64,000 nucleotides of DNA, from contig JAUSJA010000008.1 of assembly GCA_030647905.1 (NCBI GenBank), positions 62,001 to 126,000 on the forward strand, written 5' to 3'. Position 1 is the stretch's first letter. The number at the start of each line of letters is the position of its first letter. The position numbers and the translations under genes were made by a program. Positions 20,017 through 35,674 of this stretch are shown in pieces. The notes under the pieces are model-generated. The model saw only the letters and a list, made by a program, of their open reading frames with translations. It was not told the DNA's origin and ran no database searches. Origin of the DNA: Gemmatimonadaceae bacterium (GTDB lineage Bacteria; Gemmatimonadota; Gemmatimonadetes; Gemmatimonadales; Gemmatimonadaceae).

Positions 20017-20020
20017 CGAG

Positions 20021-20063: not shown

Positions 20064-20090
20064 CGTCCGGTTCTTCCGTCGGTTTGCCGA

Positions 20091-20120
20091 TTGTGCCCTT
20101 TTTGTGCCCTAAAATGCCCT
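20091..20120 (+). repeat. Left arm-like repeats of element 1 (TTGTGCCC)
   Basis: Two copies of TTGTGCCC at 20091 and 20102 (11-bp step) are followed by a partial TGCCC at 20115. A nearly identical pair with the same 11-bp step lies at 35675-35694, just inside the right end of the element. Placement inside both ends suggests integrase arm-binding sites; this is inference. Confidence 0.5.
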
Positions 20121-20262
20121 AGGAATGGCGAGCGGTATTGGGTTGGCCCGTCGTAGGATCAGGCCTAGATCGTGGCGCAGAAGCGATCCTGGTGCGACTG
20201 TTTGGTGCCAGCGATGTCAGTCCTTCAGGTGAAATTGGTTCCCCTCTCAATCGAGGCCAAGC

Positions 20263-20637
20263 ATGAAGATCCACCGCATGTTGTTAGTCGGAGTGATCGC
20301 ACTTGCGGCCTGCAGTAGTGAGAAAGTGACCGAGCCAAAACTGACGGTCGCAGGCAACTGGAGCGGGACATTTACGCCGGGTGCATCGAGCGTGAGTCTT
20401 TCGCTACTCCTCACGGAGAATGCGGGGCAGGTGACCGGCAATGGGACAATCAGCGGGGAAACAAGCACAGCGCTAACGGTAACCGGAACCTTCGTAGCTC
20501 CGAATGTTTCCCTTACGCTAAGCCCGCCCGGCTTCGAACCGATGAATTATGCCGCATTCGTTAAGGAGGCGTCGATGTCCGGCGCACTAAACGGGTCAGG
20601 CTTCTTTAATCAGGGCGTGACGCTCTCCAGGCACTAG
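20263..20637 (+). CDS. Small lipoprotein of unknown function
   Basis: 124 aa with a signal peptide and lipobox IALAAC, followed by a Ser/Thr/Gly-rich beta-type sequence (AGNWSGTFTPG, then GQVTGNGTISG). No enzymatic motif is visible. It sits between the left att site and the integrase, pointing toward it, and is the only rightward gene there. It could be cargo (moron) expressed from the lysogenic or integrated state. Confidence 0.65.
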   Translation: MKIHRMLLVGVIALAACSSEKVTEPKLTVAGNWSGTFTPGASSVSLSLLLTENAGQVTGNGTISGETSTALTVTGTFVAPNVSLTLSPPGFEPMNYAAFVKEASMSGALNGSGFFNQGVTLSRH

Positions 20638-20646
20638 CAACACCAA

Positions 20647-21867
20647 TCACGTGCCGTTCATAACCGCTGCGAGAACGGCAGCCGGGTCCGACTGCTGATA
20701 GATGCTGAGCGTCTTAGTGCTCTTCCATCCACCGGCCCGTGCAACATCCACGTCGGCCAAGTGACGCCGCTCGCTCGCCCATAGCCGCCGGTAAGGGTGG
20801 AACGTCCCGCCCGTCAGCTTCGCCACTTCGGCGAGCACTTCCGCTTTCAGTAGCCAACGCGCGGCAACGACTCGCGAGATAGGAAGCGCGCCGTCCTTGG
20901 GCCCAGGGAAGAGAGGGACGTCGCCGAGTCGCGGATTGAGTAACAGATAGCGCTCGATCTCAGTCTTAGTCGCCGCGGAGATTGGAGTGATGTGAAGGAC
21001 GCCCTGCTTGTCCGATTCTGCACTCCACCGGATCGCGCCGTAGGGCATGTGCTCCGCGAGCCGTTCGTCCATTCCGGCGGTTGCAAGCGCCTTTGCAATC
21101 CGCTCAGTCGAGAGCATCACGTCCGATGCTCGGAGATGGATGATCGCGCTCTCACGTCTGCCGGTGTATCGAGCGAGAGAGAGGATCAGGCGCAGTCGCC
21201 CCTGCGGATCCACTTCGCCGGCTTTGGCAATGGTGCGGACATAGCGATCGTGTGAAGCGATCGGCCGGCGCACGTTCTTCTCCTTTGGCCAATCGCAGTC
21301 ATGGAGAGGGTTGTGGTCGAGCAGTCGCCTACCCGATGCAAGCTTGTGCTTTCTCGCCCAATTGAAGACGCTCGAGAGCCAACTGAAATCCGAGTCGAGC
21401 GCTCCGTCACGCAATGGACGGGGCTTCTGTTTGTTGGTCAGGCGTCCCGTCGCTGCCCTTGGCCCGACTCGGCCGTCACGACGTGCGACACAGTATGAAT
21501 CAACCGATGACTGAGAGATCTGAGCGACGGGGAAGCCATCACCCCAGGCATCTTTGAAAAGACGGGAGCGGGTTTCGGCTCCACGTTTCCATTGAGCCTT
21601 TAGCGTTTGTCCTTTGTGCTCGTGATACGCGGTGAAGAGTTGAGCGACCGTGAGGGTATCAGGTGTGACGCCGAGTAGTTGCTGTGTCGCGATCTCGCGC
21701 GCCAGGGTGAGCGCATTCGCTTCCGCAATGTTGCGCTCACCCGTCTCAGCGCTGACCCGCGTTCTCTTTTCTCCGTGGCGCACGTCGAAATAGTAGCGAT
21801 CGCCACGGCGGAAGATGCGCACGCGCACGCCGGACGCTTCGACGGTCGCACTCTTCTTACGCTTCAT
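20647..21867 (-). CDS. int: Tyrosine recombinase/integrase of element 1
   Basis: 406 aa from ATG 21867, preceded by an AGGTGG ribosome-binding site; a longer upstream frame exists but lacks support. The catalytic parts are visible in the C-terminal half: Arg in ARYTGRRESAI, the HxxR box in FHPYRRLWASER, GGWKS, and the nucleophilic Tyr in LSIYQQ. It points toward the left att site, the usual place for an integrase acting on that site. It is only distantly similar to the integrase of element 2. Confidence 0.93.
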   Translation of the reverse strand: MKRKKSATVEASGVRVRIFRRGDRYYFDVRHGEKRTRVSAETGERNIAEANALTLAREIATQQLLGVTPDTLTVAQLFTAYHEHKGQTLKAQWKRGAETRSRLFKDAWGDGFPVAQISQSSVDSYCVARRDGRVGPRAATGRLTNKQKPRPLRDGALDSDFSWLSSVFNWARKHKLASGRRLLDHNPLHDCDWPKEKNVRRPIASHDRYVRTIAKAGEVDPQGRLRLILSLARYTGRRESAIIHLRASDVMLSTERIAKALATAGMDERLAEHMPYGAIRWSAESDKQGVLHITPISAATKTEIERYLLLNPRLGDVPLFPGPKDGALPISRVVAARWLLKAEVLAEVAKLTGGTFHPYRRLWASERRHLADVDVARAGGWKSTKTLSIYQQSDPAAVLAAVMNGT

Positions 21868-21877
21868 GATGTCCACC

Positions 21878-22657
21878 TCATGACTTCCTCCGTTTCGTGG
21901 GTTTGTTCTTTCGTCGGCTCTTCCTCGCCGGCGCGGGCGATCCTGCACCCTGCGTGGAGCTGACCGGCTGCCACGAGAGGACCTTCCAGGCGGGCCTTGG
22001 CGCGGTGGCGAAACGTGCCAGGATCGCACTCGCGCGTTCAAGCCTGGCCTTATCCTCAGTCAGTTTCGCGCGGTTCAAGCGTATGGCGGTGACCCCGAGT
22101 GCCGCGCGGGCTCCCAATATCGCGTGCATTTCACTGTAGTACGCGGCATTATCGCGGAGGAAGTGCGCGAGCGTATCTACACAGAGCTGTAGAAGAGTCT
22201 CGCCGGAGATCATAGACTTGACTTTCTCACCCAAGTTGAGACCGACGCCGGCCGGCTCGGTCAGCTTCACGCCTGCCTTCTTGATCGCTACAGGCCAGAC
22301 GTAGGCGGCCAAGTCGGCGGCGAGCTTGGCCTCTGTGCGCGTGACGCCCTCGCGCTCGGGGAGCTCGCCGAAGAGCAGCCACGCCGGGCGCCTCTGGAAT
22401 GCCGCGGCCACGGTAAGTACTTCCGTCGGATGAATGCCCGACAGACCGTTGACCCATTTTGAAACCTTCGACTTGTTGACATCGGCATCGTCGCTCGGCC
22501 ACACCTTCCGGCAGAAGGCCTTCTGCTCACCGGCCTCCTTTACCAGCAGCGACAGCCGTCCCTTAACCCCCTGTAGCCAGGCCTGATATTCTTTTGTTGT
22601 TGCCAAAGGGAAACTCCGCGTTGCTGGAAAGTGTATTTCCGTTTGAGGGGGATTCAT
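21878..22657 (-). CDS. Cro/CI-like helix-turn-helix regulator next to integrase
   Basis: 259 aa. Residues about 25-110 look like a lambda-repressor-type HTH region (VNKSKVSKWVNGLSGIHPTEVLTVAAAF) followed by WLLFGELPER, a phrase common in phage regulators. The C-terminus is very basic (KSRRKNKPTKRRKS). It lies 10 nt upstream of the integrase on the same strand, so the two are probably co-transcribed. A lysogeny repressor or integration regulator role is inferred. Confidence 0.7.
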   Translation of the reverse strand: MNPPQTEIHFPATRSFPLATTKEYQAWLQGVKGRLSLLVKEAGEQKAFCRKVWPSDDADVNKSKVSKWVNGLSGIHPTEVLTVAAAFQRRPAWLLFGELPEREGVTRTEAKLAADLAAYVWPVAIKKAGVKLTEPAGVGLNLGEKVKSMISGETLLQLCVDTLAHFLRDNAAYYSEMHAILGARAALGVTAIRLNRAKLTEDKARLERASAILARFATAPRPAWKVLSWQPVSSTQGAGSPAPARKSRRKNKPTKRRKS

Positions 22658-22683
22658 TGCGCCCCCCGCTGCCGTTAATTACC

Positions 22684-22700
22684 GTCAACTTATGGTTGAC
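22684..22700. promoter_or_regulatory. Inverted repeat at the divergent start region
   Basis: GTCAAC and GTTGAC flank a five-base spacer in the 34-nt gap between the leftward regulator gene and the rightward small gene. The second arm overlaps the rightward ATG at 22692. It is a plausible operator for the neighbouring HTH protein; binding is not demonstrated. Confidence 0.4.
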
Positions 22701-22892
22701 TTCAAGAATCTGCTTGCTTCGCGTGGCGATTGCAAGTCCGAGGTACTGGGATCGCGCGTCTCGGCCAGCGAAAGGCGCGTTATCGAGGCAGCCGCAGCCG
22801 GAGTCCACGCCACCGTGAGTGACTTCATCCGGGCGGCGAGCGTGGCGATTGCTCGCGACTATCTCGCGGGCGATTCGGGGGCGGCGCGATGA
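22692..22892 (+). CDS. Small protein, possibly ribbon-helix-helix type
   Basis: 66 aa, first gene of the rightward operon of element 1. The segment RVSASERRVIEAAAAGVHATVSDFIRAASVAIA resembles MobC/DUF1778-type ribbon-helix-helix proteins, in which a short strand is followed by two helices. That suggests DNA binding. The assignment rests on overall pattern only. Confidence 0.55.
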   Translation: MVDFKNLLASRGDCKSEVLGSRVSASERRVIEAAAAGVHATVSDFIRAASVAIARDYLAGDSGAAR

Positions 22893-22923
22893 TGCCCGTC
22901 CGCTCAGTCGGTGCACTCAGGGA

Positions 22924-23151
22924 ATGACGCGCATGCTCTTCGATTATTGCAGGCGCAAGCCGGATCGCGCTGCTGCATGTCGCCAGATCCTCCGCGAGAT
23001 CGAGGTGGAACGTGAAGTTCGTTGTGTGCAGCTCACGCTCAATTTGCCTCGCGATCGCTCCGAACCACGGCCACTTGTACCGATGCCGAAGTCCGCGCGC
23101 CCCGAATGCCAGCAGGTTCGGCCGCGTCACCTTTTCATGCGCCGCCGGTGA
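22924..23151 (+). CDS. Small hypothetical protein upstream of the helicase
   Basis: 75 aa, Arg- and Cys-containing (DYCRRKPDRAAACRQILREIEVEREVRC). The ATG at 22933 has a better-spaced ribosome-binding site. Support comes from its end, which overlaps a GTG start for the helicase in a GTGA arrangement, as with the other genes of this operon. No recognisable domain; it may not be real. Confidence 0.4.
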   Translation: MTRMLFDYCRRKPDRAAACRQILREIEVEREVRCVQLTLNLPRDRSEPRPLVPMPKSARPECQQVRPRHLFMRRR

Positions 23152-24773
23152 CTGCACCGAAGTTGCACCGCGATGACGCGGAGGTGGCTCCTCCTTACTC
23201 CGAGGACGCCGAGCAGGCGGTCCTGTCAGCGATGCTGATGGATGCGGAAGCCGTGCTCAAGGCAATGAAGCACGTCGATGAGTCCGCCTTCTATCGCGAG
23301 CCACACAAGCGAATCTTCCGTGCGATAGCGTCACTGTCGGAGCGCGGCGATGCAATCGATCCGATAACCCTCGCGGAAGAGCTGACGCGCGCGGGCGAAC
23401 TCGGTGCGGCTGGCGGCAAGGACTACATCGGATTCCTCGAGATTGCGGTCCCGACCTCAGCCAACGTCGAATATCACGCCAAGATCGTTCGCAAAAAGGC
23501 GCTGCGACGCGAAGCCATTCGTCGCGCACGCCAGCTCATTGCTGAGGCAGAGGCAACCGGGGGAGATCCAGCGGCGGCCCTTCAGCGACTCCGTGAGTTG
23601 TCATTGGACGATTCGGCGCGGGAAGATGACGTCCCAGTCATAGTCTCGTTGGCGGTGCTGGTCCAACAGCCCGAGCTACTCTTGCCGCCGCCATGCATCG
23701 TGCCGCGCCTCGCTCACAGGGGAAGGGCAACCCTCATTGTCGCGCCTGATAAAGCGGGCAAGTCTACTATGGCGGCGCACGCCGTCGCCGCGATTTCAAG
23801 GCGCGGATACTTCCTCGGCGAGCCCGTCGCAGCCGCCAGTGCGAGATCTCTGTGGGCCGGCATCGAGGAAGCAACAGGCGACGCCGTTCGGCGATTCTCG
23901 GAGATGGATGCTGTTCCCGAAAATATCGATATTGTCGTTATTCAGCGGCCTGACCTCTTCGCGCAAATCCGAGCGAGGCTATCAGAGCACGCCTTCGATG
24001 TCCTCGTTGTTGACTCGCTCACGGAGTACGCGCGCGTCGTACAGGGCAAGGTCCCCGAGGAGGGAGATTCGAGCGGATGGAACGCGGTAGTCCGGCCTCT
24101 CGTCGCGCTCACCCGCGAGTTTCCGAGTCTCTGCTTGCTGATGTTGCATCACCCCCGGAGAAGCGACGGCCAGTTCCGTGGGTCCGGGGAGATTGCAGCT
24201 GCATTCGATTGCCTTCTGGAAATGCGCGGGCCAAAGGACGGTGAGGATCCGACTATCCGTCACATCACCGGGCGAGCTCGGTGGCAGGTGCCACCGTTCG
24301 ACGTCCGTTTTCGAAACGGCAGATACGAATTGGCCAGCGGCCTTGAGCTTTCGCTCGATGCCCGCGTCCTGATCCAAATCGAGCAAAACCGCGGCGTGAG
24401 CCTGGCTGTCCTTCGGGCAAAGGTGGGCGGGCGCGGAAAGGTCGTTGACGATGCTGTGACCGAGCTGCTTCACCGCGGGGCGATCGTCGATCTTGGTGTC
24501 AACGGCAAGCATGCGTACCATCCCGCGGGGCCCCAGCGGTCGGTGTTTGACATCGCGGCTGGCTCTCCAAAACAGCTTGTCCCGAAGCTTGTCCCGGCCT
24601 CTTCTGCGACAGCTTGTCCCAGCGACGCGGCCCGGGCTTGTCCCACCCTGTCCGGTGCCTGTCCGGTGCCTGTCCCACAGCACAACTCCGAAGCCTGTCC
24701 CGTTCCCCCACCCCACGTAGTGGGGGGGGACGGACGGACAGACAGCCAGCCGACGAGAGGTCTGGTGCTTTAA
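23148..24773 (+). CDS. Replicative helicase-like protein: DnaB N-domain fused to RepA/AAA_25 ATPase
   Basis: 541 aa from GTG 23148 (the frame is open from TTG 23022 and ATG 23106). Residues about 15-125 are a DnaB N-terminal domain (PPYSEDAEQAVLSAML, then AFYREPHKRIFRAI). The middle is not a DnaB RecA core but a RepA/AAA_25 ATPase with Walker A APDKAGKST, Walker B VLVVDSLTEY and LLMLHHPRRSDGQFRGSGEIAAAFD. A winged-helix-like tail follows. It may unwind an element origin and load host primase. The last 70 codons overlie iteron-like repeats. Confidence 0.85.
   Translation: MTAPKLHRDDAEVAPPYSEDAEQAVLSAMLMDAEAVLKAMKHVDESAFYREPHKRIFRAIASLSERGDAIDPITLAEELTRAGELGAAGGKDYIGFLEIAVPTSANVEYHAKIVRKKALRREAIRRARQLIAEAEATGGDPAAALQRLRELSLDDSAREDDVPVIVSLAVLVQQPELLLPPPCIVPRLAHRGRATLIVAPDKAGKSTMAAHAVAAISRRGYFLGEPVAAASARSLWAGIEEATGDAVRRFSEMDAVPENIDIVVIQRPDLFAQIRARLSEHAFDVLVVDSLTEYARVVQGKVPEEGDSSGWNAVVRPLVALTREFPSLCLLMLHHPRRSDGQFRGSGEIAAAFDCLLEMRGPKDGEDPTIRHITGRARWQVPPFDVRFRNGRYELASGLELSLDARVLIQIEQNRGVSLAVLRAKVGGRGKVVDDAVTELLHRGAIVDLGVNGKHAYHPAGPQRSVFDIAAGSPKQLVPKLVPASSATACPSDAARACPTLSGACPVPVPQHNSEACPVPPPHVVGGDGRTDSQPTRGLVL
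24575..24701 (+). repeat. Iteron-like repeats in the 3' end of the helicase gene
   Basis: Eight copies of a GCTTGTCCC/GCCTGTCC-type unit begin at 24575, 24587, 24612, 24636, 24646, 24657, 24668 and 24693. Steps are 10-12 or 24-25 nt, close to one or two helical turns. Several steps are not multiples of three, so the repeats are not a protein repeat. An origin bound by an element protein is the simplest reading, but it is untested. Confidence 0.5.
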
Positions 24774-24967
24774 TGACGATCCCCGACATGCTTCTCTGGC
24801 TTGATGTGATGTACGAGGTCCGCGTCGCGCTGGCGCCTGATGGGGAACACCTGTTAGTCACCGGGAACGCGGACGCCATCAGGTGCGCGGCGCCCAAGCT
24901 ATCGCAAATGAAGCCGGCCATCCTCGATCACCTGCGTGCCGTCTCCCGCTCTCCGAGGACCGCGTGA
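24773..24967 (+). CDS. Small protein resembling TubC N-terminal docking domain
   Basis: 64 aa; the ATG at 24773 overlaps the helicase stop. The pattern of a short helix, VRVALAPDGEHLLVTG, then PKLSQMKPAILDHLRA is like the TubC-N/docking-domain family often found beside phage or plasmid helicases and primases. The resemblance is by eye only. The end overlaps the next gene through GTGA. Confidence 0.6.
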   Translation: MTIPDMLLWLDVMYEVRVALAPDGEHLLVTGNADAIRCAAPKLSQMKPAILDHLRAVSRSPRTA

Positions 24968-25308
24968 CGCCGAACGAACTTGCCAAACACTGGCGGCAGG
25001 ACGCCGAGACGCTGGAGCGCTACGACTCCCAGCTCGCCGGCGTCTGTCGGGGCCATGCGGACGAACTGGACGCGGCGCTCCGCTCCGTTGCTGACGATGC
25101 GCTGGACCTCGCAACGGCGGCACACGAGTCGGGTTACTCCAGAGACCGGCTTCGCCACATGCTGGCCGAGGGCGCGATACCCAACGCCGGCCGGAAGGGC
25201 TCACCCCGCATCCGTCGCGGAGACTTGCCATCGAAGAGTCGGGCGAACATGGGCGGCTTCGATGCCGTCGCGGCGGCTCGCGGTGTTCTCCGGAGTGGCC
25301 ATGCGTGA
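24964..25308 (+). CDS. HTH protein shared with element 2
   Basis: 114 aa from GTG 24964. The central segment AAHESGYSRDRLRHMLAEG followed by IPNAGRKGSPRIRRGDLPSKS reads like a MerR/excisionase-type helix-turn-helix with wing. The same segment (AAHESGYS, GRIQNFGRGGAPKLRRGDLP) occurs in the protein at 37179-37592 of element 2. A role in excision or gene control of these elements is inferred. Confidence 0.65.
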   Translation: MTPNELAKHWRQDAETLERYDSQLAGVCRGHADELDAALRSVADDALDLATAAHESGYSRDRLRHMLAEGAIPNAGRKGSPRIRRGDLPSKSRANMGGFDAVAAARGVLRSGHA

Positions 25309-25525
25309 GCGCGACATACCCGCCACCTGTCGCCACCGTCGCCAGCGGGTAGTCGCTCAGCCGGACGGTTCCCGGAGGCAGTGCTGCCTCGATTGCGGGG
25401 CAACGATCGCCAAGCTCGCTCCCGCGCTCCCGCGTCTGCGGACTGACGACGAACTCCGCGTCGAAGCCGAACGCCGACAGCGCCGGCGAGAGATCGGGTT
25501 ACCCCTCAATGCGGAGACTCCATGA
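25301..25525 (+). CDS. Small putative zinc-ribbon protein
   Basis: 74 aa, start overlapping the previous gene by 8 nt. A possible metal site is formed by CRH near the N-terminus and CCLDCG in the middle, and the C-terminus is rich in Arg (AERRQRRREIG). Its real status is supported by overlaps on both sides (ATGATG at 25522). Confidence 0.5.
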   Translation: MRERDIPATCRHRRQRVVAQPDGSRRQCCLDCGATIAKLAPALPRLRTDDELRVEAERRQRRREIGLPLNAETP

Positions 25526-25824
25526 TGATTGATGACCGAGAGGTAGCCCGGCGTGAGCAAGAGGCTGCATTCGACGCCCGGCAACTGGTCGAGGAGATCG
25601 GGATCGTAACCACGACGGGCAGGCTCCCCGTCGAGACGATGCTGGCTGCGATCAGGCGGGTCCGGGGCTTACCCGAGGTTCAGCCGCAACAGCGGGGCGC
25701 GGGGATACCCCCCTCCGGGGGCGGATCGGATCTCCACGCGAACGCAAAGTCCCCGACCACTCGCAACCTATTCGCGCACAAAAAGGTACCCGGTTCAACG
25801 AGAATTGAGGCTATGAGAGGATGA
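25522..25824 (+). CDS. Hypothetical protein
   Basis: 100 aa. The N-terminal half is acidic and helical (REVARREQEAAFDARQLVEEIG); the C-terminal half is Gly/Pro-rich and looks unstructured. Both ends overlap neighbours by 4 nt (ATGA). No family recognised. Confidence 0.5.
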   Translation: MMIDDREVARREQEAAFDARQLVEEIGIVTTTGRLPVETMLAAIRRVRGLPEVQPQQRGAGIPPSGGGSDLHANAKSPTTRNLFAHKKVPGSTRIEAMRG

Positions 25825-26177
25825 AGAAGCCAAACCTACCGACTCCCCCGCGTCACCTACGGGCCGAAACTCGGCGATGGTGGTCCTCAGTGGTCGCGGA
25901 TTTCGAGCTTGAACCCCATCACCGCCGGCTGCTAACCCTCGCCGGCGAGGCGTGGGATAGGACGCAACAGGCACGCGAGGCGCTCGCGAAGTTCGGAGTT
26001 ATCTACTTGGACCGCTTCGGCTCACCGAAGGCGCGCCCCGAGGTAGCGATCGAGAGGGACAGCAGGACCTCATTCGCGCGGCTCCTTCGGGAGCTAGCGC
26101 TTGATGTTGACCCGCCCGCCGAGTCCCGGCCGCCGAGCGTTGCCGGCGTCGATCACCTACGTAAAATGGAGAGATAA
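25821..26177 (+). CDS. Phage terminase small subunit, P27 family
   Basis: 118 aa. The pattern HLRAETRRWWSSVVADFELEPHHRRLLTLAGEAWDR, then a variable Arg/Glu helix and RPEVAIERDSRTSFARLLRELALD, is that of P27-type small terminases. These recognise phage DNA and hand it to the large terminase. No large terminase gene follows; the next genes are of unknown function. It therefore could redirect a helper phage's packaging motor to this element. Confidence 0.85.
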   Translation: MKKPNLPTPPRHLRAETRRWWSSVVADFELEPHHRRLLTLAGEAWDRTQQAREALAKFGVIYLDRFGSPKARPEVAIERDSRTSFARLLRELALDVDPPAESRPPSVAGVDHLRKMER

Positions 26178-26755
26178 TGCCAAGACCGCGAAGAGCCGCC
26201 CGAGACCGTCGGCCGGAGATAACAACTTTTGAAAGGCGCTGGGCCTTCGGTGAGCCGCTCGGCGAGTACGCGATTCAGGAGTTTTTCACGTCGCCCGCGC
26301 GCCTTCGTGCGGTTTGGGAGGAGTTGCGCGACGAGGCGGTTGCCGCGTGGGCGGAGGCGCGCCCGGGCACGAGGCAACCGAACTGGTGGGACTATGATGC
26401 ACCTGAGCCGCGCCGCCGGCTGGGCGGAATCGGCGACGAGCTGTCCGCGGTGCTCGCACATGTTGAATCGTGGAACTGCGGCATCCCGAGCGCCTTTTAC
26501 ACCGAAGAAGACTCGTCGGACTACCCGGGCGAGGCGCTGTGGAACCACGCGCAGGAGCGACCAGCCGTCGCGCTGGACCCGTGCGATCCGCCGCGATACG
26601 AGTCTCAGGCCGCGTACCTGGATTGGCACGCCCTCCTGACAGCCGGCGAGCGGTCCCGGCTCGAGCGCGACGGCTGGCCGGGCGACGAAATCATCGAGTA
26701 CGACGAGGACCCCGAGACCGTAACAACCGAACCCCCAACCATGAGGACCGACTGA
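26177..26755 (+). CDS. Phage-type hypothetical protein
   Basis: 192 aa, one-base overlap with the small terminase gene. Trp- and acid-rich, with WNCGIPSAFYTEEDSSDYPGEALW and a C-terminal AYLDWHALLTAGERSRLERDGWPGD. No nuclease or ATPase motif, so it is not a large terminase. It occupies the position where that gene would be expected. Function unknown. Confidence 0.55.
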   Translation: MPRPRRAARDRRPEITTFERRWAFGEPLGEYAIQEFFTSPARLRAVWEELRDEAVAAWAEARPGTRQPNWWDYDAPEPRRRLGGIGDELSAVLAHVESWNCGIPSAFYTEEDSSDYPGEALWNHAQERPAVALDPCDPPRYESQAAYLDWHALLTAGERSRLERDGWPGDEIIEYDEDPETVTTEPPTMRTD

Positions 26756-26756
26756 C

Positions 26757-27341
26757 ATGTTCACCAAGCCAAAACCCGCGCAAACCCTGACGGACTACCC
26801 CGCATACATCGAGGCCACCGACAAGCTAGACTCAGTAAAGCACAAATTGTCCCGCGTCGAAGCAAAGATCGAAGCGTGGCGCGTGTCGCGCACACCAGCG
26901 GCGACACAGGTCGCAGAGCAGGCCCGCGCGCTCTTGAGTCAGGGTAGCGTTGCCGTGGCAGACGCGCCGACCACCGAGACAATCGACGAGTTGCAGGACC
27001 AGCGCCGCGTACTGTGCGAGGCTGTCCAGCAACAGGTGCGGGAAGTCGAGACGACGCGCGCCGCGATTTGCCGCGAGATCGCGCGGGCGGCGCTCCCCGA
27101 ATACCAGAGCATCGTGCGCGAGATGGTGGAAACCTTCGCGCCCTTCGGCGCCGCGTGCGAGAAGGAAGCTGCATTCCGCGACCGATTCACCGAGCAAGGG
27201 ATTTCGTTTGCGTCCATCGCGCCACCCGTGCCGCTCAACGGAACGCGACTCAGCGTCTACGCAAGCGACGTGAATCGCTGGCTCGATCAGGTCGAAAAGG
27301 ATTATGGCGTGATCGTGAAAAACCGCCGGAGGCAGCCATGA
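26757..27341 (+). CDS. Hypothetical coiled-coil protein
   Basis: 194 aa with long helical, charged segments (DKLDSVKHKLSRVEAKIEAW, then DELQDQRRVLCEAVQQQVREVETTRAAICREIAR) that suggest a coiled coil. It occupies the slot of a portal gene but is far too short for one and lacks portal features. A scaffolding or size-determining role is conceivable but unproven. It overlaps the protease gene by 4 nt. Confidence 0.55.
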   Translation: MFTKPKPAQTLTDYPAYIEATDKLDSVKHKLSRVEAKIEAWRVSRTPAATQVAEQARALLSQGSVAVADAPTTETIDELQDQRRVLCEAVQQQVREVETTRAAICREIARAALPEYQSIVREMVETFAPFGAACEKEAAFRDRFTEQGISFASIAPPVPLNGTRLSVYASDVNRWLDQVEKDYGVIVKNRRRQP

Positions 27342-28489
27342 GCGCGCCACAGATCGAGCGGCGCATTTCGGCGTCCCCGGTCCCGCTCCGCTCGGAGGGC
27401 CGGGCTGGTGCAGCAGCGGATGGGCGCCGACTGATCGGCTACGCGGCCGTGTTCAACTCGCTGAGCGAGAATCTCGGCGGCGGAATGCGGGAGATCATCG
27501 AACCGGGGGCGTTCACCAAGGCACTCCGCACCAGTGACGTTCGGGCGTTACTGAACCACAACCCAAACTACGTGCTCGGCCGCACCAAGAGCGGCACGCT
27601 CCGACTGAACGAGGACGCGACCGGACTCCGCGCCGAGATCGACGTTCCCAAGACTGCGACAGGTGACGGCGTGCTCGAGTCCGTGCGCCGCGGCGACATT
27701 AGCCAGATGAGCTTTGCGTTTCGCGTCGAGCCGGGCATCGGCGATCGCTTCTCGACCGGGAAAGATGGCGTAACCGTCCGGCGCATTGTCGAGATTCAAG
27801 AACTCATAGACGTGTCCCCGGTAGCATTCGCCGCCTATAGTGAAACCGTCGTCTCAGTCCGCGCGCTTCAGCTCGCTACGGAAACGGCGAAGGCACGCCC
27901 GCCTCGCGACTTGGCGGCCGAGCGCCGCCGAAACGACGCAGAGATTGCGCGCTGCGAGGAACAGGAGCGCCGCGCCCGCACTCGCCGCATCCTTAACGAG
28001 GCCATCGGCCGCGATGTCTCGCGATCATGGGTAGCACGAGTCTGCGACCACGAGAGCGGCCACGCCGTGATGTATTGGGCAACGGGTGCGGGAGTAGACG
28101 CGGTAGGGTTGGTCGTGGACGAGGATCGCGACCGGGTGCGGGTTAGTGGGAGCGCTCATGCCAAGCGGCAAAAGGACCCGTACTCAGACGCGCAAGCGAG
28201 TCTTGGAGGCATCGCTTGCGAACGGCTCGCCGGATATGACGCGCCCGGACCCACCGAGTGGCCGATGAACTCGGACGTAAATCGTGCCCGCAAATCGCTG
28301 GCGGCATCCGGCCGTTCCTCGGGCTACGACGACATCGAGCACGAGATCGCGCGAGTTGAAGGCGTATTGCGACAGCACTGGCCGGCCGTTGTTGCCCTTT
28401 CTCGGGAAATCTGGAGCAAAACGGCGCTGACCGGCGAAGAAGCCGAGGCGATCATCCAGAAGGCGCTATTTGCCAAGAGGGTTGCCTGA
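27338..28489 (+). CDS. HK97-type prohead protease fused to an M41-like zinc metallopeptidase
   Basis: 383 aa. Residues about 15-170 are a U35 prohead protease: LIGYAAVFNSLSENLGG, His74 in LLNHNPNYVLGRTKSGTLRL and Ser125 in ISQMSFAFRV. After a charged linker, residues 230-380 look like the FtsH/M41 fold: HESGH at 238-242, GGIACERLAGYD, an Asp in NSDVNRAR matching the third zinc ligand, and a helical end with LTGEEAEAII. No AAA ATPase accompanies it. Both active sites look intact. The protease normally matures the capsid, yet no capsid gene is present. Confidence 0.85.
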   Translation: MSAPQIERRISASPVPLRSEGRAGAAADGRRLIGYAAVFNSLSENLGGGMREIIEPGAFTKALRTSDVRALLNHNPNYVLGRTKSGTLRLNEDATGLRAEIDVPKTATGDGVLESVRRGDISQMSFAFRVEPGIGDRFSTGKDGVTVRRIVEIQELIDVSPVAFAAYSETVVSVRALQLATETAKARPPRDLAAERRRNDAEIARCEEQERRARTRRILNEAIGRDVSRSWVARVCDHESGHAVMYWATGAGVDAVGLVVDEDRDRVRVSGSAHAKRQKDPYSDAQASLGGIACERLAGYDAPGPTEWPMNSDVNRARKSLAASGRSSGYDDIEHEIARVEGVLRQHWPAVVALSREIWSKTALTGEEAEAIIQKALFAKRVA

Positions 28490-28491
28490 CC

Positions 28492-28860
28492 ATGTACGCT
28501 GAACGCCATGTGGTCGCACTGACCACCGCAGCAGACGGGTCGGCAACCGGCTACACGCCGGTAGTTACCGGCCCGATCCGCACGATTCGCTATGTAAAGA
28601 CGGACTTTGCCGATGGCGTGGACTTCACCGTCACGCTGGAAGGAACCGGGGAAACGGTCTGGGCGGAGGACAACGTCAACGCGAGCGCCACGCGCTCACC
28701 GCGACAGGCCACGCATTCCACGGCAGGAGTCGCTGCGCTCTACGCGGCCGGAGGTACGGCGGTCGCTGACCTCATCGTTGCCGTGCGCGACCGGGTGAAG
28801 GTCGTCGTCGCGGCCGGCGGCAATGCGACGACCGGCGCCATTCATGTCGTCGTCGGATAA
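28492..28860 (+). CDS. Phage structural-type hypothetical protein
   Basis: 122 aa, 2 nt after the protease gene. The pattern ERHVVALTTAADGSATGYTPVVTG, RQATHSTAGVAALYAAGG and a final VVVAAGGNATTGAIHVVVG matches a small beta-rich protein common in tailed-phage structural operons. Its exact role in virions is not established. Confidence 0.65.
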   Translation: MYAERHVVALTTAADGSATGYTPVVTGPIRTIRYVKTDFADGVDFTVTLEGTGETVWAEDNVNASATRSPRQATHSTAGVAALYAAGGTAVADLIVAVRDRVKVVVAAGGNATTGAIHVVVG

Positions 28861-28956
28861 ACACTTTTCTTAAACGGTGAACTGTTGCCAGATATTCGGA
28901 TGAAGCTCTCGGCGGTTGCGCAGCAGTTGGCGGGCCGACGTGCGGGGACAAAAAAC

Positions 28957-28997
28957 ACTGGCGCCCGCGCCATATCGGCATATACTGCCAGTATGGC
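28957..28997. promoter_or_regulatory. Nested inverted repeats before the next structural gene
   Basis: ACTGGC (28957) pairs with GCCAGT (28987), and GCCATA (28969) pairs with TATGGC (28992). The region is locally AT-rich and ends at the ATG at 28993, inside an otherwise tightly packed operon. It may be an internal promoter/operator or an RNA hairpin controlling late genes; no proof. Confidence 0.35.
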
Positions 28998-29442
28998 CGA
29001 CTGGATGGAGCTAAGGCCGAGCGCATCATCGCCCGGTCAATCAGAGCTTCACATGCTGCCTGACCGTCACGCTGGGAAGGAAGCGAGGGAGGGGGCTTTC
29101 GAGAAGCTTCCGCGACTGCTCCGTCGCGAGATCAAGAAAGCGGGTGCCGAGGAAGCAGCACGCGCTGAGATCTCGGCCGCAATCGAGGAAGGCGCGCTCG
29201 AGCTTGAGCCGTTACTCGGACCGGAAAACGCCGAGGCGGTGGCGAGCGCCTTTCTCCCTCGCCTGATCGCCGGCGGCGTTCTCCTCAAGGCTTACATCAG
29301 TGAGATCGAGACAACGCGGAGGTCTCTGCGCGAGGCGATCGCCACGCCGCTACCAGACGACGCGGCGCCAGAAACGCGGCTGCTTGTTCGGCTAGCCCGG
29401 AGCCGCGTCGACACGCTCACACAATATCCGAGGGAATTCTAA
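28993..29442 (+). CDS. Hypothetical protein preceding tape measure
   Basis: 149 aa from ATG 28993; the frame is open from TTG 28885 and ATG 28900. I prefer 28993 because the upstream segment carries the inverted repeats. Mostly helical and acidic (EIKKAGAEEAARAEISAAIEEGALELEPLLG). Position just before the tape measure gene fits a tail assembly chaperone, but there is no sequence support. It overlaps the next gene by one base. Confidence 0.5.
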   Translation: MADWMELRPSASSPGQSELHMLPDRHAGKEAREGAFEKLPRLLRREIKKAGAEEAARAEISAAIEEGALELEPLLGPENAEAVASAFLPRLIAGGVLLKAYISEIETTRRSLREAIATPLPDDAAPETRLLVRLARSRVDTLTQYPREF

Positions 29443-31697
29443 TGAGTCTCGCATCTCTAGTCGTTCACATCGGCGCCGACACGAGCGGGCTCAATAAAGC
29501 CTTAACTCAGTCCCAGAAGGACATTCAGAAGGCAGGACGGCAATTCTCCAATCTCGGCGCGTCCTTAACCAAGAATCTGGTTATTCCCATCGTCGGAGTT
29601 GGGGCCGCGCTCGCGGCGTCTGCCGTGAAGGTTGGGACGTTCGCTGATGAGCTGCTTGACCTGGTAGACATGACCGGGCTTACCGCGCGCACGTTGCAGG
29701 AATTCCGCCACGTTGCATCGGTCGCTGGCGTGGAGTCCGACACGCTGGCCAACGCAGCAATCAAGCTCACGGCCGCGATGTCCTCCGGCGACGAGCAGGG
29801 CAAGAAGTTGGGGGATGCGCTCGGACTGCTCGGCATCAAGGCCAACGATGCGTCAGGCAAGCTGGTCTCGATGGACGTCCTGCTGCCTCAGATCATCACC
29901 GGTCTGCAGGGCATGACCGACATCACGAGCCGGAACGCGCTCGCCGCCGATATTTTCGGGAAATCATGGTCTGAGTTGGCCCCGATCCTGTCGATGACGA
30001 GTGGGGAAATGACGGCGGCGCGCGACGAAGCGCAGCGGCTCGGTCTCGTTATGTCCGATGAGGCGCTCAAGTCCGCCGACGCCTTCAGAAAGGCGCTGGG
30101 CACACTCACCCAGACCGCGGGCGCGATCACCCGCGAGATCGGCGTTGGCATGATCCCTGTTATGACGAGTCTGGCCAAATTCCTCCAGGAGAGTGTCGTG
30201 CCCGCCGTGCGCGCCGTCGTCGGATGGTTTGGCGACCTCTCGACAGGAACGAAAATAACGATCGGCGTGGTCGCCGGACTGGCCGTCGCGCTTACCGGGG
30301 CGGTAATAATCTTCGGGACGATTCTTAAGTTCATGCCGCTGCTCACGTCGGGATTCACTGCTTTAACCGGACCGATTGGTCTCACCATCCTCGCGATCGG
30401 CGCGCTCACCGCAGCCGGTATCCAGATGGTGAAGCATTGGGACGCCGTGAAGCTGCAGTTTGTGCTGGCCTGGACGGCCATGAAGGACGCCGCGTTCACC
30501 TCGGTCGGCTTTATCCTGGACATGCTCGTCGCGCTGACGGTGAGGATACCAGTACTCGCCGGCAAGATCATGGGGCTGCGCTCAGCGTTCGACCTGATCG
30601 CAGAAAAGTCGATGGCCTCGAGCGGGCGCGCGATAGGTGCGCTCGAGCTCAAGCTTCTGGATGCTGGCACGGCTGCAGAGATGACCGATAGCAAGGTCAG
30701 AAAGCTCGTCAGTACGCTGAACACCCTTGGCTCTGGCGGTGCCAGTAAGCTCCTCGGCCGGCTCGCTGAACAGCTCGGCGGGCTAGGGACGAGTGTGACG
30801 CCGGCATTCGCGGGCGCAGGTGGAAGCAATCCCCTTAGCGGGCCCAAGATCGCCGAGATGACCGGGAATATCGTCTCGCCGTCGGCGGGAGGGAGGCCAT
30901 ACGGTTTTCAAGAGGGCGACAGTTTCGGAATGAAGATCGGCCGGGTGATTCAGGCGGGCGCTGGCAATAGCGAGATGGGACAGATGATTCAGGCGACCGC
31001 GGAGTTCGGCAAGTTCGCTATCCTGCTTCCCATTATCAGCGGGGCGATGGAGACGCTTGCGCCAGCGTTCTCCGCGCTTTTGGAGCCGCTGAAAATGGTG
31101 GGCCGTGTCATCGGTGACATGCTGGTGCCGCCGATAAAGATGGTGGCCGATCTCTTATCGGCGGCTCTCGCCCCCGCGCTGAAAATTCTTGCCGGGGTCG
31201 TCCGCGTCATTTCGGTCGCGTTCAGCTTCGTCAGTGAGGCAATCGGTTGGATGATCCTCGGTATCGGCAAGCTGATTGACTCGCTCCCGTTCGTCAGTGC
31301 GAAGGGCATGATCAACATGGGCCAGAGCATGATTGACGCGGCCCGTGCGGCGCGGCGCAACACGGACGCGACCGACGACGCGACGGATGCTGTCACCAAG
31401 TTCGCCAGTGCACTCAGCAACATCCCGCGCGTGCTGAACATCAACGCGCTCCGGCACATGGTCACGGGCGCAGGTGGCGGAGATAGTGGAAGTGGCGGCG
31501 GCGGGAGTGTCGGGGGTAGCGGAGGTGGTGGCGGCGGTGGGAAAGGCGACCAGATTTTGTACAGCTACGACACCATCAACATCACCGTGCCGGGCGCGGG
31601 CGATCCGGAACGAGTGGCGGAGGCGGTAGGTCGTGTCATCGAGCGCAAGCGCGCGCGGGGGGGCATGTCCCGCCTCGCGTTAGCGGTGGCAACTTGA
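29442..31697 (+). CDS. Phage tail tape measure protein
   Basis: 751 aa. The N-terminus (VVHIGADTSGLNKALTQSQKDIQKAG) is the classic tape-measure start. A TP901-like core follows (VGTFADELLDLVDMTGLTARTLQEFRH), then several hydrophobic helices (VGAALAA, GVVAGLAVALTGAVIIFGTIL, TILAIGALTAAGIQM). A long Gly/Ser-rich stretch stands near residues 680-705. Tape measures set tail length and enter the host. It is the last gene of the rightward structural operon; no tail tube, baseplate or fibre genes follow. Confidence 0.88.
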   Translation: MSLASLVVHIGADTSGLNKALTQSQKDIQKAGRQFSNLGASLTKNLVIPIVGVGAALAASAVKVGTFADELLDLVDMTGLTARTLQEFRHVASVAGVESDTLANAAIKLTAAMSSGDEQGKKLGDALGLLGIKANDASGKLVSMDVLLPQIITGLQGMTDITSRNALAADIFGKSWSELAPILSMTSGEMTAARDEAQRLGLVMSDEALKSADAFRKALGTLTQTAGAITREIGVGMIPVMTSLAKFLQESVVPAVRAVVGWFGDLSTGTKITIGVVAGLAVALTGAVIIFGTILKFMPLLTSGFTALTGPIGLTILAIGALTAAGIQMVKHWDAVKLQFVLAWTAMKDAAFTSVGFILDMLVALTVRIPVLAGKIMGLRSAFDLIAEKSMASSGRAIGALELKLLDAGTAAEMTDSKVRKLVSTLNTLGSGGASKLLGRLAEQLGGLGTSVTPAFAGAGGSNPLSGPKIAEMTGNIVSPSAGGRPYGFQEGDSFGMKIGRVIQAGAGNSEMGQMIQATAEFGKFAILLPIISGAMETLAPAFSALLEPLKMVGRVIGDMLVPPIKMVADLLSAALAPALKILAGVVRVISVAFSFVSEAIGWMILGIGKLIDSLPFVSAKGMINMGQSMIDAARAARRNTDATDDATDAVTKFASALSNIPRVLNINALRHMVTGAGGGDSGSGGGGSVGGSGGGGGGGKGDQILYSYDTINITVPGAGDPERVAEAVGRVIERKRARGGMSRLALAVAT

Positions 31698-31811
31698 GAA
31701 CCGTCGGCGGAGGAAACGCCGCATGGTAATTAGAACAGTGTTCACGTCGGATGGCGCATTCCTTGAGCTCTCGGCATATATTCGGCTCCGCGCCGCGCGG
31801 GAGTATCGAGT

Positions 31812-32564
31812 ATGAGTACCGGAATAGAATGGACGAATGAGACGTGGAATCCGATGACGGGTTGCACGAAAATCTCCTCGGGCTGCGACAACTGTTACGC
31901 CTACACGCTGGCCCACACGAAAGTCCGGGAACACTACCTCCGGCAACTCCCGGTGAAGGACACCGAACAGAACCGCGCAGATCCGTTCGCCCCCCGCTTC
32001 TGGGAGGAGCGGCTGATGAAGCCCTTCAGCTGGCGCGAGCCGAAACGAGTCTTCGTCAACAGCATGTCGGACGTTTTCCACGCGCACTTTTCCCTTGAGC
32101 AGATACAAAAAGTGTTCGACGTGATGAATGCCTGCCCTCAACATCAGTTCCAAGTTCTGACGAAGCGTCCTGAGCGGGCCGCGCGTCTCGCAGAGCACCT
32201 CGTGTGGACTCACAATATTTGGATGGGCACTTCGATCGAATCGATGGATGTCGCACGACGAGCCGACGCACTACGCCAGGTCCCGGCGGCTGTGCGGTTC
32301 ATCTCTGCAGAGCCGCTGCTAGCTCCCCTCGATGGTCTAAATCTCGACGACATCCACTGGGTAATCGGCGGCGGCGAAAGTGGGATCGGCTACCGTCCCT
32401 GCAAAGAGGAATGGGCAATCGGACTACGCGATCTCTGCCTCGAGCGCGACGTTTCGTTTTTCTGGAAACAGTGGGGCGGACGGACCCCAAAGTCGAAGGG
32501 ACGCGTACTCGAAGGCCGCGAATGGAACGAATATCCAGAGAAGCTCGGCGAAGCAGTCGCGTGA
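31812..32564 (+). CDS. Phage protein Gp37/Gp68 family (DUF5131), three-Cys motif
   Basis: 250 aa with an N-terminal IEWTNETWNPMTGCTKISSGCDNCYA. The Cx6Cx2C spacing resembles the Fe-S site of radical SAM enzymes. Other family marks are VFVNSMSDVFH, FQVLTKRPERA, WMGTSIES and WVIGGGESG. The biochemical role is not established. It is convergent with the tcmP gene, the stops being only 2 nt apart; these families are known partners. A 114-nt gap separates it from the tape measure gene, so it may have its own promoter. Confidence 0.88.
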   Translation: MSTGIEWTNETWNPMTGCTKISSGCDNCYAYTLAHTKVREHYLRQLPVKDTEQNRADPFAPRFWEERLMKPFSWREPKRVFVNSMSDVFHAHFSLEQIQKVFDVMNACPQHQFQVLTKRPERAARLAEHLVWTHNIWMGTSIESMDVARRADALRQVPAAVRFISAEPLLAPLDGLNLDDIHWVIGGGESGIGYRPCKEEWAIGLRDLCLERDVSFFWKQWGGRTPKSKGRVLEGREWNEYPEKLGEAVA

Positions 32565-32566
32565 AG

Positions 32567-33463
32567 TCAGGTGAAGTCGAACTCGAGCGGTGGCGGATCA
32601 CCAGCCCCCTCTTCCCACTTCACCAGTTTGGCCGCGACCGCGTTGTTTGACGCGAATAGCATCTTGTAGAGGCATTTGTCCCCCACCTCGTACACGGTTC
32701 GGACAATGCGAGCGTGGTTCCAGCGAGTTTTCAGCCGTCGAAGGTAGACCGCTTCGAGGCAAAGAAGAAACGCCTTCGTATGTGAGTTCGTGATTCGTGC
32801 TGGAAGGCACTCCCGCCACTCCTCAGATCCGAAGAATGCGTCGAATCGCGGCGCGTACCGCTCGAGATACTCCAGCTTGAACGACATCAACCTCTGAAAC
32901 GCCTGCCGGATCGGGAAGAGCATATAAAGGTCCACGCTCTGGTGACCGAGTGCCTTCAGATTCTCGACCGATCTCCACGGCCACTCCTTTATGCCCTCGA
33001 TGTCCGCGAATGTGAACACGTAGTCGAAGCGTGGAATACTGTCCATGATTGCCGGCAGCGCCTCGTTCGCATCGGCGTGAACGAGGCGGATTCGATTGAG
33101 TGGTATTCGGCACTCACCGGAAGCGACGAGCCGCGCAACACGCTCGGTCAACGCCTCGTGATCGGGGAGCACCCTGTTCACCAGAATAGCATCAGTGAAG
33201 CAGACGTCGGGGTTGCCGGGCGCGTGCATTTTGAGAGCTCTGAGCGGCGACCCGTCGAATTCCTCTCCCCCGCCATCGCGCGCCACGTTGAGCCCCGGCC
33301 CCGCGAAGAGATCCAAGTAGACTCGCTGTCGCTTTGATTTCGTGACGTTGAGCGCGGGAGGACCGAAGCGATCGATGAACTCAAGCTTCTGCTTACCCCA
33401 TGCGCCACTCTCGCGAGCACGTAGGCCGTCTTTCGCTATTACGACTGGCCGCTTACGTGACAA
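32567..33463 (-). CDS. tcmP: Three-Cys-motif partner protein TcmP
   Basis: 298 aa from a TTG start directly after the stop of the small gene at 33464. It has the family core ESGAWGKQKLEFIDRFG and VYLDLFAGPGLN, the latter like motif I of SAM-dependent methyltransferases; TcmP proteins are named for occurring beside three-Cys-motif genes. The partner Gp37/68 gene faces it. A joint enzymatic activity on nucleic acid or protein is inferred; defence or superinfection exclusion is possible. Confidence 0.88.
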   Translation of the reverse strand: MSRKRPVVIAKDGLRARESGAWGKQKLEFIDRFGPPALNVTKSKRQRVYLDLFAGPGLNVARDGGGEEFDGSPLRALKMHAPGNPDVCFTDAILVNRVLPDHEALTERVARLVASGECRIPLNRIRLVHADANEALPAIMDSIPRFDYVFTFADIEGIKEWPWRSVENLKALGHQSVDLYMLFPIRQAFQRLMSFKLEYLERYAPRFDAFFGSEEWRECLPARITNSHTKAFLLCLEAVYLRRLKTRWNHARIVRTVYEVGDKCLYKMLFASNNAVAAKLVKWEEGAGDPPPLEFDFT

Positions 33464-33628
33464 TCAGGTTCGGGCGGTGAGGGTTCCGTTGGCTCTTGGT
33501 CGCTGGACCAGCGCACCCAATTCGGCAGGAGAATGAAGGCGAGCATACTCCTCAATCTCTTCTGCCGTCATGCTCTTGAGAATCCTCTGGCGTAGCTCGA
33601 GAGCCCGCCCGCGGTGGTCGTATATCAT
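33464..33628 (-). CDS. Small protein between MuF-like gene and tcmP
   Basis: 54 aa, start ATG at 33628 overlapping the upstream gene's stop (ATGA), stop touching the tcmP start. The sequence is helical and charged (HRGRALELRQRILKSMTAEEIEEYARLHSP). Tight spacing on both sides supports it. It may be needed for translational coupling of tcmP; no family recognised. Confidence 0.6.
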   Translation of the reverse strand: MIYDHRGRALELRQRILKSMTAEEIEEYARLHSPAELGALVQRPRANGTLTART

Positions 33629-34221
33629 CGGCTAATGCGTATCAGGCAGCGACAGCCATCTGAGGAGGTGCATTCTGGATGTGGAAGCTCTGGCGTGGAG
33701 CCAGGCGGGAAGACTCGGCCTGTAAGCGCAGCACATGAAAGGCACGTCCGCGGATCGCCAACGACTGAAACGGCGGTGGGCATTAGCCGGTTGTACGCGA
33801 ATGGCCCGAGATACTCCTCCAGTTGCGCGCGATTCCTCGCAAAAAACACGAACATTCTAGCTGCTGCATCTGCGTTTATGTGAATGCCCGTAGAAAGCTC
33901 CCTCGGCAGCCAGCGACGTTTGGATTCACCCCATAATAATTGCATTGCGGCTGCAAAGCGAAGTTGTGCGATCGCCTCGCTCCGCACGTTGCGCAGAATG
34001 CCGGGAACGACGGAGTAGATCACCGAGAGCATGCGAACATCCATGCGTGCATCGTAGTTCTGCCAGTCGACGCCGATTCCGCGCGGTGACGGCTGTTTCT
34101 TCTCGTAGTCCCCAACGATGCGAGCTGCGCGCTCAAAATCGCGGGCGGCAATAGCCGTTCCGACTTGTCTCTCCGCCTCAGCTCGCGCCGGAGACGGCGG
34201 CTTCAGCGCACGAGGCGTCAC
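33625..34221 (-). CDS. MuF-like minor head protein
   Basis: 198 aa from GTG 34221 (the frame is open from 34296). The C-terminus has CLSCAALTGRVFPPGS and a final HPECTSSDGCRCLIRI, the cysteine/histidine pattern of Mu gpF-type head proteins (CxxC...HPxCRC). The N-terminal half is helical. In phages MuF proteins follow the portal gene and enter the head, and some carry toxins. Here it is in a separate leftward operon with tcmP, which is unusual. Confidence 0.65.
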   Translation of the reverse strand: MTPRALKPPSPARAEAERQVGTAIAARDFERAARIVGDYEKKQPSPRGIGVDWQNYDARMDVRMLSVIYSVVPGILRNVRSEAIAQLRFAAAMQLLWGESKRRWLPRELSTGIHINADAAARMFVFFARNRAQLEEYLGPFAYNRLMPTAVSVVGDPRTCLSCAALTGRVFPPGSTPELPHPECTSSDGCRCLIRISR

Positions 34222-34273
34222 AGTCCCGCCGCCCCTTCGGGCTCCCGCTCGAGGAGATTGCCCGCAGGCGACC

Positions 34274-34483
34274 TCAAGCGGCGAGCAGCTCGGCAAGTCC
34301 TCGAATCTCCGCTGCGATGTGAATCACCTCTCCCTGAATCTCGCCGGTCATGGCGTAGCGATTCGGTAGCGCCTCCATGAAGGCGGCCGTCGCGCAGAGT
34401 TGTTCCAGCAGGCCGCCCGGCAATCTCTCCTCGAGCGCACATACGAAGCAGGGCCGAGGCTGGAAGTGGACGGGGCAGATCAC
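34274..34483 (-). CDS. Small putative zinc-binding protein
   Basis: 69 aa if it starts at GTG 34483; GTG 34531 gives 85 aa. CPVH and CFVC near the N-terminus could bind zinc, followed by a helical region. A short upstream reading (34548-34483) ends in overlap with the 34483 GTG. No family recognised. Confidence 0.4.
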   Translation of the reverse strand: MICPVHFQPRPCFVCALEERLPGGLLEQLCATAAFMEALPNRYAMTGEIQGEVIHIAAEIRGLAELLAA

Positions 34484-34577
34484 TTCGCCTTGCGTTTCTT
34501 TTCCCGCTTTGTGGCGGGCTCGTCTACCCACTCGAGGAGCTCTCTCATTCGCGGTCGAACGTCACCAGCACTGGGGT

Positions 34578-34760
34578 TCAGAGTCCCCACTGGGCGCCTG
34601 TGAAAACCTGCGCCTCTCCGGTGATACGGTTGATTCGTATAAGCCAGTCTCCCGTGCCATTGCCGATTGCGCCATGCTCATATCGGTACATGGTCGGCCA
34701 GACGAACGCAGCAAGTGCAAGGGCCAGTAGGCCTAAACCGATCCGAAGTGCGCGCTTCAC
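34578..34760 (-). CDS. Small single-pass membrane protein
   Basis: 60 aa. A basic N-terminus is followed by a hydrophobic helix (IGLGLLALALAAFVW) and a short external part ending RINRITGEAQVFTGAQWG. The final motif recurs in small phage/prophage proteins. The ATG overlaps the stop of the repressor gene, so the two are coupled. Confidence 0.6.
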   Translation of the reverse strand: MKRALRIGLGLLALALAAFVWPTMYRYEHGAIGNGTGDWLIRINRITGEAQVFTGAQWGL

Positions 34761-34978
34761 TTCCGCCGGCCCTTCGGCTCCCGCTGAATCAGATCCCCGA
34801 CTTCGACATTCAGGGCGCTGGCGAGCTTATCGAGAGTCGCGAGCGATACCTGGGCCGTGACGTTCCGGCACATTCGGCTGATCGTGGCGAAGCTCACGCC
34901 TGAGTCTCTCGAAAGCTGACTCTGACTTGTTCCCTTCGCGTCGATAACCTCCTGCAGCCTGAATCGGGCGGGGCTCAT
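34757..34978 (-). CDS. XRE-family repressor of element 1
   Basis: 73 aa from ATG 34978; the frame extends to 35026. A standard XRE helix-turn-helix covers residues 1-65: LQEVIDAKGTSQSQLSRDSGVSFATISRMCR, then SLATLDKLASALNVEVGDLI. Two direct repeats and a good divergent promoter lie just upstream, so it probably represses itself and the rightward gene at 35099. Confidence 0.85.
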   Translation of the reverse strand: MSPARFRLQEVIDAKGTSQSQLSRDSGVSFATISRMCRNVTAQVSLATLDKLASALNVEVGDLIQREPKGRRK

Positions 34979-35008
34979 AATGGAAAAATTACCACCTCCT
35001 GGCTTAAC

Positions 35009-35063: not shown

Positions 35064-35098
35064 ACGCCGTAGACCAAACCCCAACAGGAGAAGCCACG

Positions 35099-35653: not shown

Positions 35654-35674
35654 CTTAGGCGCGGCTCCCTGAGA

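Follow-up and report, generated by a model that had tools for sequence, protein, structure and literature searches.

Phage satellites are elements that are not themselves phages and that encode means of favouring their own packaging in phage-made particles (PMC11389934). The phage-inducible chromosomal islands (PICIs), including the Staphylococcus aureus pathogenicity islands (SaPIs), carry attachment (att) sites, an integrase, regulators, a replication gene with 3'-end repeats, the small terminase subunit TerS and accessory genes, their origin adjoining the replication gene at its 3' end (PMC6092414). The capsid-forming PICIs (cfPICIs) carry major capsid, portal, connectors and the large terminase subunit TerL and take only tails, and MulchRoom and MiniFlayer, two satellites from Streptomyces, encode a portal and a capsid as well as TerL and are without replication genes (PMC10690885). 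For the phage-inducible chromosomal minimalist islands (PICMIs) the defining genes are those for integrase, AlpA, primase and Fis, and their authors report finding none, such as terS, that would redirect packaging (PMC10803314). Here we describe a mobile element of 15,846 bp at positions 20018-35863 of a 64,000-nucleotide stretch (the window) from contig JAUSJA010000008.1 of a Gemmatimonadaceae bacterium. We consider it, at a probability of roughly three in four, to be a complete chimeric phage satellite. The best account of its composition is a satellite backbone of integrase, replicon, TerS and the genes starting at 26177 and 26757, to which a prohead protease, a small head-region gene and a tape measure protein (TMP), all of siphophage origin, have been joined.

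Similarly to the PICIs and SaPIs, the element lies within their size range and has att sites, an integrase, regulators, a replication gene with 3'-end repeats, TerS and accessory genes. The repeats are contained in the replication gene, at its 3' end, which would match the placement of the PICI iteron origin. The element differs from PICIs by its prohead protease and TMP, which we did not find described for them, and no PICI capsid-morphogenesis or interference gene was named among the matches of its proteins in Pfam, PHROGs and NCBIfam, which are general libraries with no dedicated PICI models. Like the cfPICIs, it has TerS and structural genes of phage type, a head maturation protease among them; however, of their set of capsid, portal, connectors, protease, TerS and TerL it has only the protease and TerS, and it brings instead a tail gene, the TMP. 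MulchRoom and MiniFlayer also have structural genes of their own, in the reverse arrangement, since here the replication gene is present and TerL, portal and capsid are absent. The PICMIs are likewise small integrated satellites, and AlpA-like regulators occur in relatives of the element, which, unlike them, encodes TerS, is inserted in a tRNA-Ser gene rather than in fis and gives no Fis match. P4-like genes of the Sid, Psu or delta type had no match in Pfam and PHROGs scans of the element proteins, no targeted search having been made. What separates the element from a prophage is the absence of TerL, portal and major capsid, while an 11-codon stub after the TMP gene shows the phage descent of that part. 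In terms of the features by which a satellite is recognised, it has its own integrase and att sites, lacks the genes for a full particle and encodes a TerS assigned by homology only. No satellite with a TMP, or with a prohead protease and no capsid, was found described in the open-access literature, which is not proof that none exists, and a literature search under Gemmatimonadota returned no satellite described in this phylum.

The limits of the element were set at 20018 and 35863 because a 69-nt repeat links the 3' half of tRNA-Ser(GGA) with positions 35795-35863 (Table 1). The integrase end adjoins the tRNA gene, and the real mobile unit exceeds the operon first noted (24773-31697). YTGTCCS occurs eight times in 150 nt at the end of the replication gene, against at most three occurrences in 300 shuffles, and this block is a probable origin of replication; in the related element of genome G042 repeats are likewise found at the 3' end of the replication gene. 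Three IMG/VR loci (L011-L013) matched the replication gene in its DnaB-side part only.

The first-pass annotation had described an operon at 24773-31697, intact and tightly packed from 24773 to 28489, that holds TerS, a prohead protease and a tape measure gene and has no large terminase, portal or capsid genes. Both statements were borne out, the former by a gene-by-gene check between 24773 and 28492, where neighbouring genes overlap by 1-8 nt or lie 1-2 nt apart and no reading frame is shifted or interrupted by a stop, and the latter by profile searches and protein sizes. The only element proteins of at least 300 aa are the integrase, the DnaB-N/AAA_25 helicase, the protease and the TMP, and therefore no intact TerL or portal is hidden in the element, in which no gene for TerL, portal or major capsid (PF05065) was detected. 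Profile searches of the whole host genome (98.6% complete) were likewise negative for portal, PF05065 capsid and phage TerL, the one TerL match (8e-7) being of a background type that recurs, over one segment of the profile at about 200-400, in nearly every genome searched. A single S78 prohead protease is encoded in this genome, that of the element.

The presumed source of the structural genes is represented by L007, an IMG/VR contig with an ordinary siphophage region in which portal, protease, capsid, connectors, tube genes and TMP were recognised by eye, the capsid being confirmed by profile. The TMP of the element is 54% identical to that of L007 over its full length and the protease 44%, and protease, 28492 gene and TMP stand in the same order in both. 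Directly after the TMP stop codon lies an 11-codon stub of the next L007 gene, which shows that the protease-28492-TMP part was cut from an L007-like phage.

The protease carries a C-terminal metallopeptidase-like domain, and such a fusion of S78 with an HExxH motif is found in three elements, with HESGH in the window, HELAH in G243 and HEAAH in G042 (chance by shuffling 0.009, 0.047 and 0.019, respectively), all three enzymes keeping the S78 catalytic histidine and serine. Among the phage records matching the window, G243 and G042 proteases (510, 30 and 18, respectively) none covers 80% of the query, and the predicted fusion was thus seen in none of the phages of the collection. Scans of viral contigs with the three proteases yielded no relative, nor did two scans of genome contigs, one with the protease and one with the TMP alignment. 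The S78 protease of the G422 locus has no HExxH motif; G303 and G423 each encode, in the corresponding region, a stand-alone protein that matches M50B/M41 weakly (HESAH and HEAGH, respectively), and the G303 protein shares 28% identity with the C-terminal portion of the window enzyme.

A different origin is suggested for TerS, which matched none of 50,697 phage records at an E value of 0.01 and has relatives on 15 plasmids. The best of these, 61% identical, is encoded on pMNOD03 of Methylobacterium nodulans (L098, NC_011893.1) next to a P4-family primase and small genes, in surroundings where nothing else is annotated as phage, and this locus is probably a satellite on, or existing as, a plasmid. 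Three genes downstream of that TerS is a possible short relative of the 26177 product (tblastn 49% over 35 aa, E 8e-4). Judging from this primase neighbour and the 35-aa match, TerS and possibly also the 26177 gene would be satellite genes that another phylum shares. The proposal that TerS redirects packaging fits this distribution, with relatives next to a satellite-type primase and none in the phage collection, and it remains at the level of homology. It had also been considered that the 26177 or 26757 product might be a divergent TerL, portal or capsid protein, or that close relatives might have those genes at the same place. For the 26757 product, the AlphaFold2 (AF2) model is instead a helical coiled coil of low confidence (mean predicted local distance difference test score, pLDDT, 63) with no match in the Protein Data Bank, and none of the relatives of the element has such genes at this position. 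For the 26177 product the model, built without an alignment, was uninformative (pLDDT 45); its length of only 192 aa and the possible small relative near a satellite TerS would speak against such an identity, and a stretch resembling its PGxRxxxWWxYxAPxP-like one was noticed by eye in G243.

Relatives were sought in 395 genomes of the same phylum with a query that joined TerS, 26177 and 26757, by a profile census and by gene calling; outside the window, genes were called with a simple gene caller on draft-genome contigs, each of the four att-bounded elements lying within one contig. The census recorded TerS in 11 and S78 in 17 of 385 genomes. Besides several partial elements, three further att-bounded ones were found, in G042 (9,014 bp, between 36-nt exact repeats of the rpsG end), G243 (17,331 bp, 44-nt tRNA-like repeat) and G423 (16,505 bp, 50-nt repeat of tRNA-Gly), all without TerL, portal or PF05065 capsid. 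S78 protease and TMP are both present in two of the three: G042 encodes integrase, RepA, TMP, S78 protease, an AlpA-like gene and a regulator, and G243 a TerS (53% identical), S78 protease, a neck-type protein and a TMP. The G423 element has TerS, a coiled-coil relative of the 26757 product and the stand-alone HEAGH protein, and no tail or capsid gene was noticed there; it is for this reason that a satellite backbone, rather than the phage donor, seems the likelier source of TerS and the 26757 gene. Among the incomplete loci, G422 comprises integrase, RepA, S78 protease, a coiled coil and a TerS-like protein, G103 TerS, RepA, integrase and a regulator, and G303 TerS, a coiled coil and the HESAH protein, at a distance of about 11 kb from a broken TerL; the partial elements showed no portal, capsid or intact TerL. 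Small genes similar in appearance to that at 22692-22892 lie near the integrase in G423 and G422, and an all-against-all comparison links the elements through their TerS, regulator, S78, peptidase-like and coiled-coil genes. Some candidates were set aside: L045 (G052:C189), with DnaB and TMP 7 kb apart, reads as an ordinary contractile-tailed prophage, several other S78 census matches look from their gene calls like ordinary prophages or non-phage loci, and an orphan TerS in G448, on a contig with transposase-like and host-type genes, was not counted.

Table 1. Features of the element and its integration site (positions in the window).
Feature	Position	Strand	Evidence or remark
tRNA-Ser(GGA), integration target	19923-20010	+	ARAGORN
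attL	19949-20017	+	69-nt repeat, 94% identical to attR, 51 nt exact
Tyrosine integrase	20647-21876	-	phrog_1 3.7e-29; 29% identical to G042 element integrase
Probable regulator	21878-22606	-	position and orientation only
Small ribbon-helix-helix-like protein	22692-22892	+	sequence read by eye
Replication protein, DnaB N-domain and AAA_25 (RepA-like) ATPase	23148-24773	+	PF00772 1.2e-28; PF13481 6.1e-11
Eight iteron-like YTGTCCS repeats, inside 3' end of replication gene	24577-24701	+	
Operon gene	24773-24967		
Helix-turn-helix (HTH)/excisionase-like small protein	24964-25308	+	39% identical over 89 aa to 37179-37592 of neighbouring remnant
Operon gene	25301-25525		
Operon gene	25522-25824		
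TerS, P27 type	25821-26177	+	PF05119 25.2 bits (cut-off 24.7); phrog_83 1.5e-10; NCBIfam match below cut-off
192-aa protein	26177-26755	+	PGxRxxxWWxYxAPxP-like stretch
Coiled-coil protein	26757-27341	+	relative in G423 element, E 1.3e-7
Prohead protease S78 (HK97-type) with C-terminal HESGH metallopeptidase-like domain	27338-28489	+	PF04586 1.4e-43; NCBIfam and PHROGs support
Small structural-type protein	28492-28860	+	44% identical to L007 gene between capsid and connector genes
Protein of unassigned role	28885-29442	+	start uncertain, perhaps 29053
TMP	29442-31697	+	phrog_8462 1.6e-25; Pfam match below cut-off
Stub of gene after TMP in donor phage	31693-31728	+	LRTVGGGNAAW* vs MRTVSGGNVAQ (start of next L007 gene)
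DUF5131 protein, candidate defence PDC-M41	31812-32564	+	PF07505 5.6e-88; PADLOC 4e-93
Three-Cys-motif partner TcmP, other half of PDC-M41	32567-33463	-	TIGR04474 8e-24; PADLOC 8e-13
Possible C-terminal piece of minor head protein (weak)	33625-34296	-	phrog_19480 0.074; TIGR01641 0.073
Cro/CI-type regulator	34757-34981	-	PF13443 1.1e-14; related to regulators of G243 and G103 elements
Protein of unassigned role	35099-35593	+	divergent from Cro/CI-type regulator
attR	35795-35863	+	69-nt repeat, partner of attL

To the right of the operon, the convergent DUF5131 and TcmP genes (31812-33463) are candidate defence cargo. The product of the next gene (33625-34296) ends in a Cys-rich motif like that of the SPP1 gp7/Mu F minor head proteins, a weak resemblance. 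Beyond attR, positions 35864-39431 hold a second integrase (35950-37167) adjoining attR, an HTH gene, a regulator and, at 39237-39431, a displaced copy of the C-terminal end of the second integrase; this is a visibly decayed second element in tandem. A third exact copy of the tRNA-Ser 3' end (58 nt) occurs at 50335-50392, and between attR and this copy lie housekeeping-like genes named by eye (Mrp-like ATPase, ferredoxin, aconitase), which would be odd for a mobile element. Two sister species hold other insertions in the same tRNA-Ser, with about 6.4 kb (L116, G004:C12) and 2.1 kb (L117, G111:C122) between the repeats, and on this account the gene is an integration hot spot of the genus.

In the mechanism that we propose, entry or induction of an L007-related siphophage would lead to excision and replication of the element, whose TerS, judging from homology, could redirect the helper TerL to satellite DNA. 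The protease would act in the helper assembly line, on the procapsid or scaffold, and the TMP might serve as an alternative ruler and ejection protein in helper particles, the net outcome being particles that favour the satellite. Dependence on a helper, packaging and effects on particles are what we infer for the element, and the possible roles of protease and TMP, namely remodelling of helper particles, interference or a change in the cells that can be injected, are each put forward as less likely than not.

Several observations weigh against a satellite. No helper phage was identified; the coding density of the element is 78% overall and the cargo side is less dense, where the 33625-34296 gene may be a remnant; the L007 record, possibly a fragment, did not reveal TerL or a related TerS; and the G042 TMP matches internal parts of TMP profiles only and may be truncated. 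The stub in turn shows a partial origin by deletion from a full phage, as a recent defective prophage would. Accordingly, the locus could be read as an L007-like temperate phage inserted in tRNA-Ser, from which deletions removed TerL, portal, capsid, connectors, tail tube and all genes downstream of the TMP, the remainder decaying or being kept by the host, a history to which the donor order of protease, 28492 gene and TMP and the visible decay of the adjoining element (35864-39431) would also conform. We regard it as improbable, since it explains the stub and not the repeated occurrence of independent compact elements with the same omissions: it requires several separate deletions, each leaving abutting intact genes, the omissions recur in independent complete elements of other genera at other sites, and the relatives of TerS and of the 26757 product in the G423 element look like satellite backbone. 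The view of the first-pass annotation that the operon belongs to a satellite rather than to a decaying prophage therefore gains from the att repeats, from a replicon with iteron-like repeats and from these independent elements, and stays a matter of probability. A gene transfer agent was also considered, and the att sites and the element's own replicon speak against it.

Two other explanations accept the satellite and differ on what the phage genes do for it, and for this reason their probabilities overlap with that of the satellite itself. Protease and TMP might be interference decoys that spoil helper procapsids or tail initiators and so protect the host, rather than parts used to build satellite particles. 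The candidate PDC-M41 pair alongside, the second peptidase-like domain, unusual for an assembly protease, and the incomplete profile coverage of the G042 TMP would agree with such a role; however, TerS in the same operon points to packaging and the window TMP is full length relative to that of L007, which makes decoys rather doubtful. Alternatively, the TMP may change which cells a particle can inject into, with head size unaltered. In HK97-type phages the C-terminus of the TMP can determine the inner-membrane partner. A TMP is kept without other tail genes in the window and in G042, and together with a neck-type gene in G243. This explanation has no direct support and leaves the protease unaccounted for, and we hold it to be unlikely.

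Returning to the chimeric satellite, its relatives raise the prospect, which we favour slightly less than its opposite, of a widespread and so far undescribed satellite class. Its hallmark would be a TerS that forms a separate branch together with a prohead protease, in many cases joined to a metallopeptidase-like domain and in many accompanied by a TMP; such elements may seize the helper at head maturation and tail length and bring no capsid. Prophage finders may label such elements as incomplete prophages. Of the satellites in the open-access literature, the PICMIs are without genes for capsid remodelling, P4, SaPI and the phage-inducible chromosomal island-like elements (PLE) supply scaffolding or packaging factors, and cfPICI, MulchRoom and MiniFlayer supply a whole head; a recurrent set of protease and TMP without capsid would be a further, distinct means of commandeering a phage, and it makes testable both satellite control of tail length or of the cells that can be injected and the effect of a second peptidase-like domain on capsid assembly.

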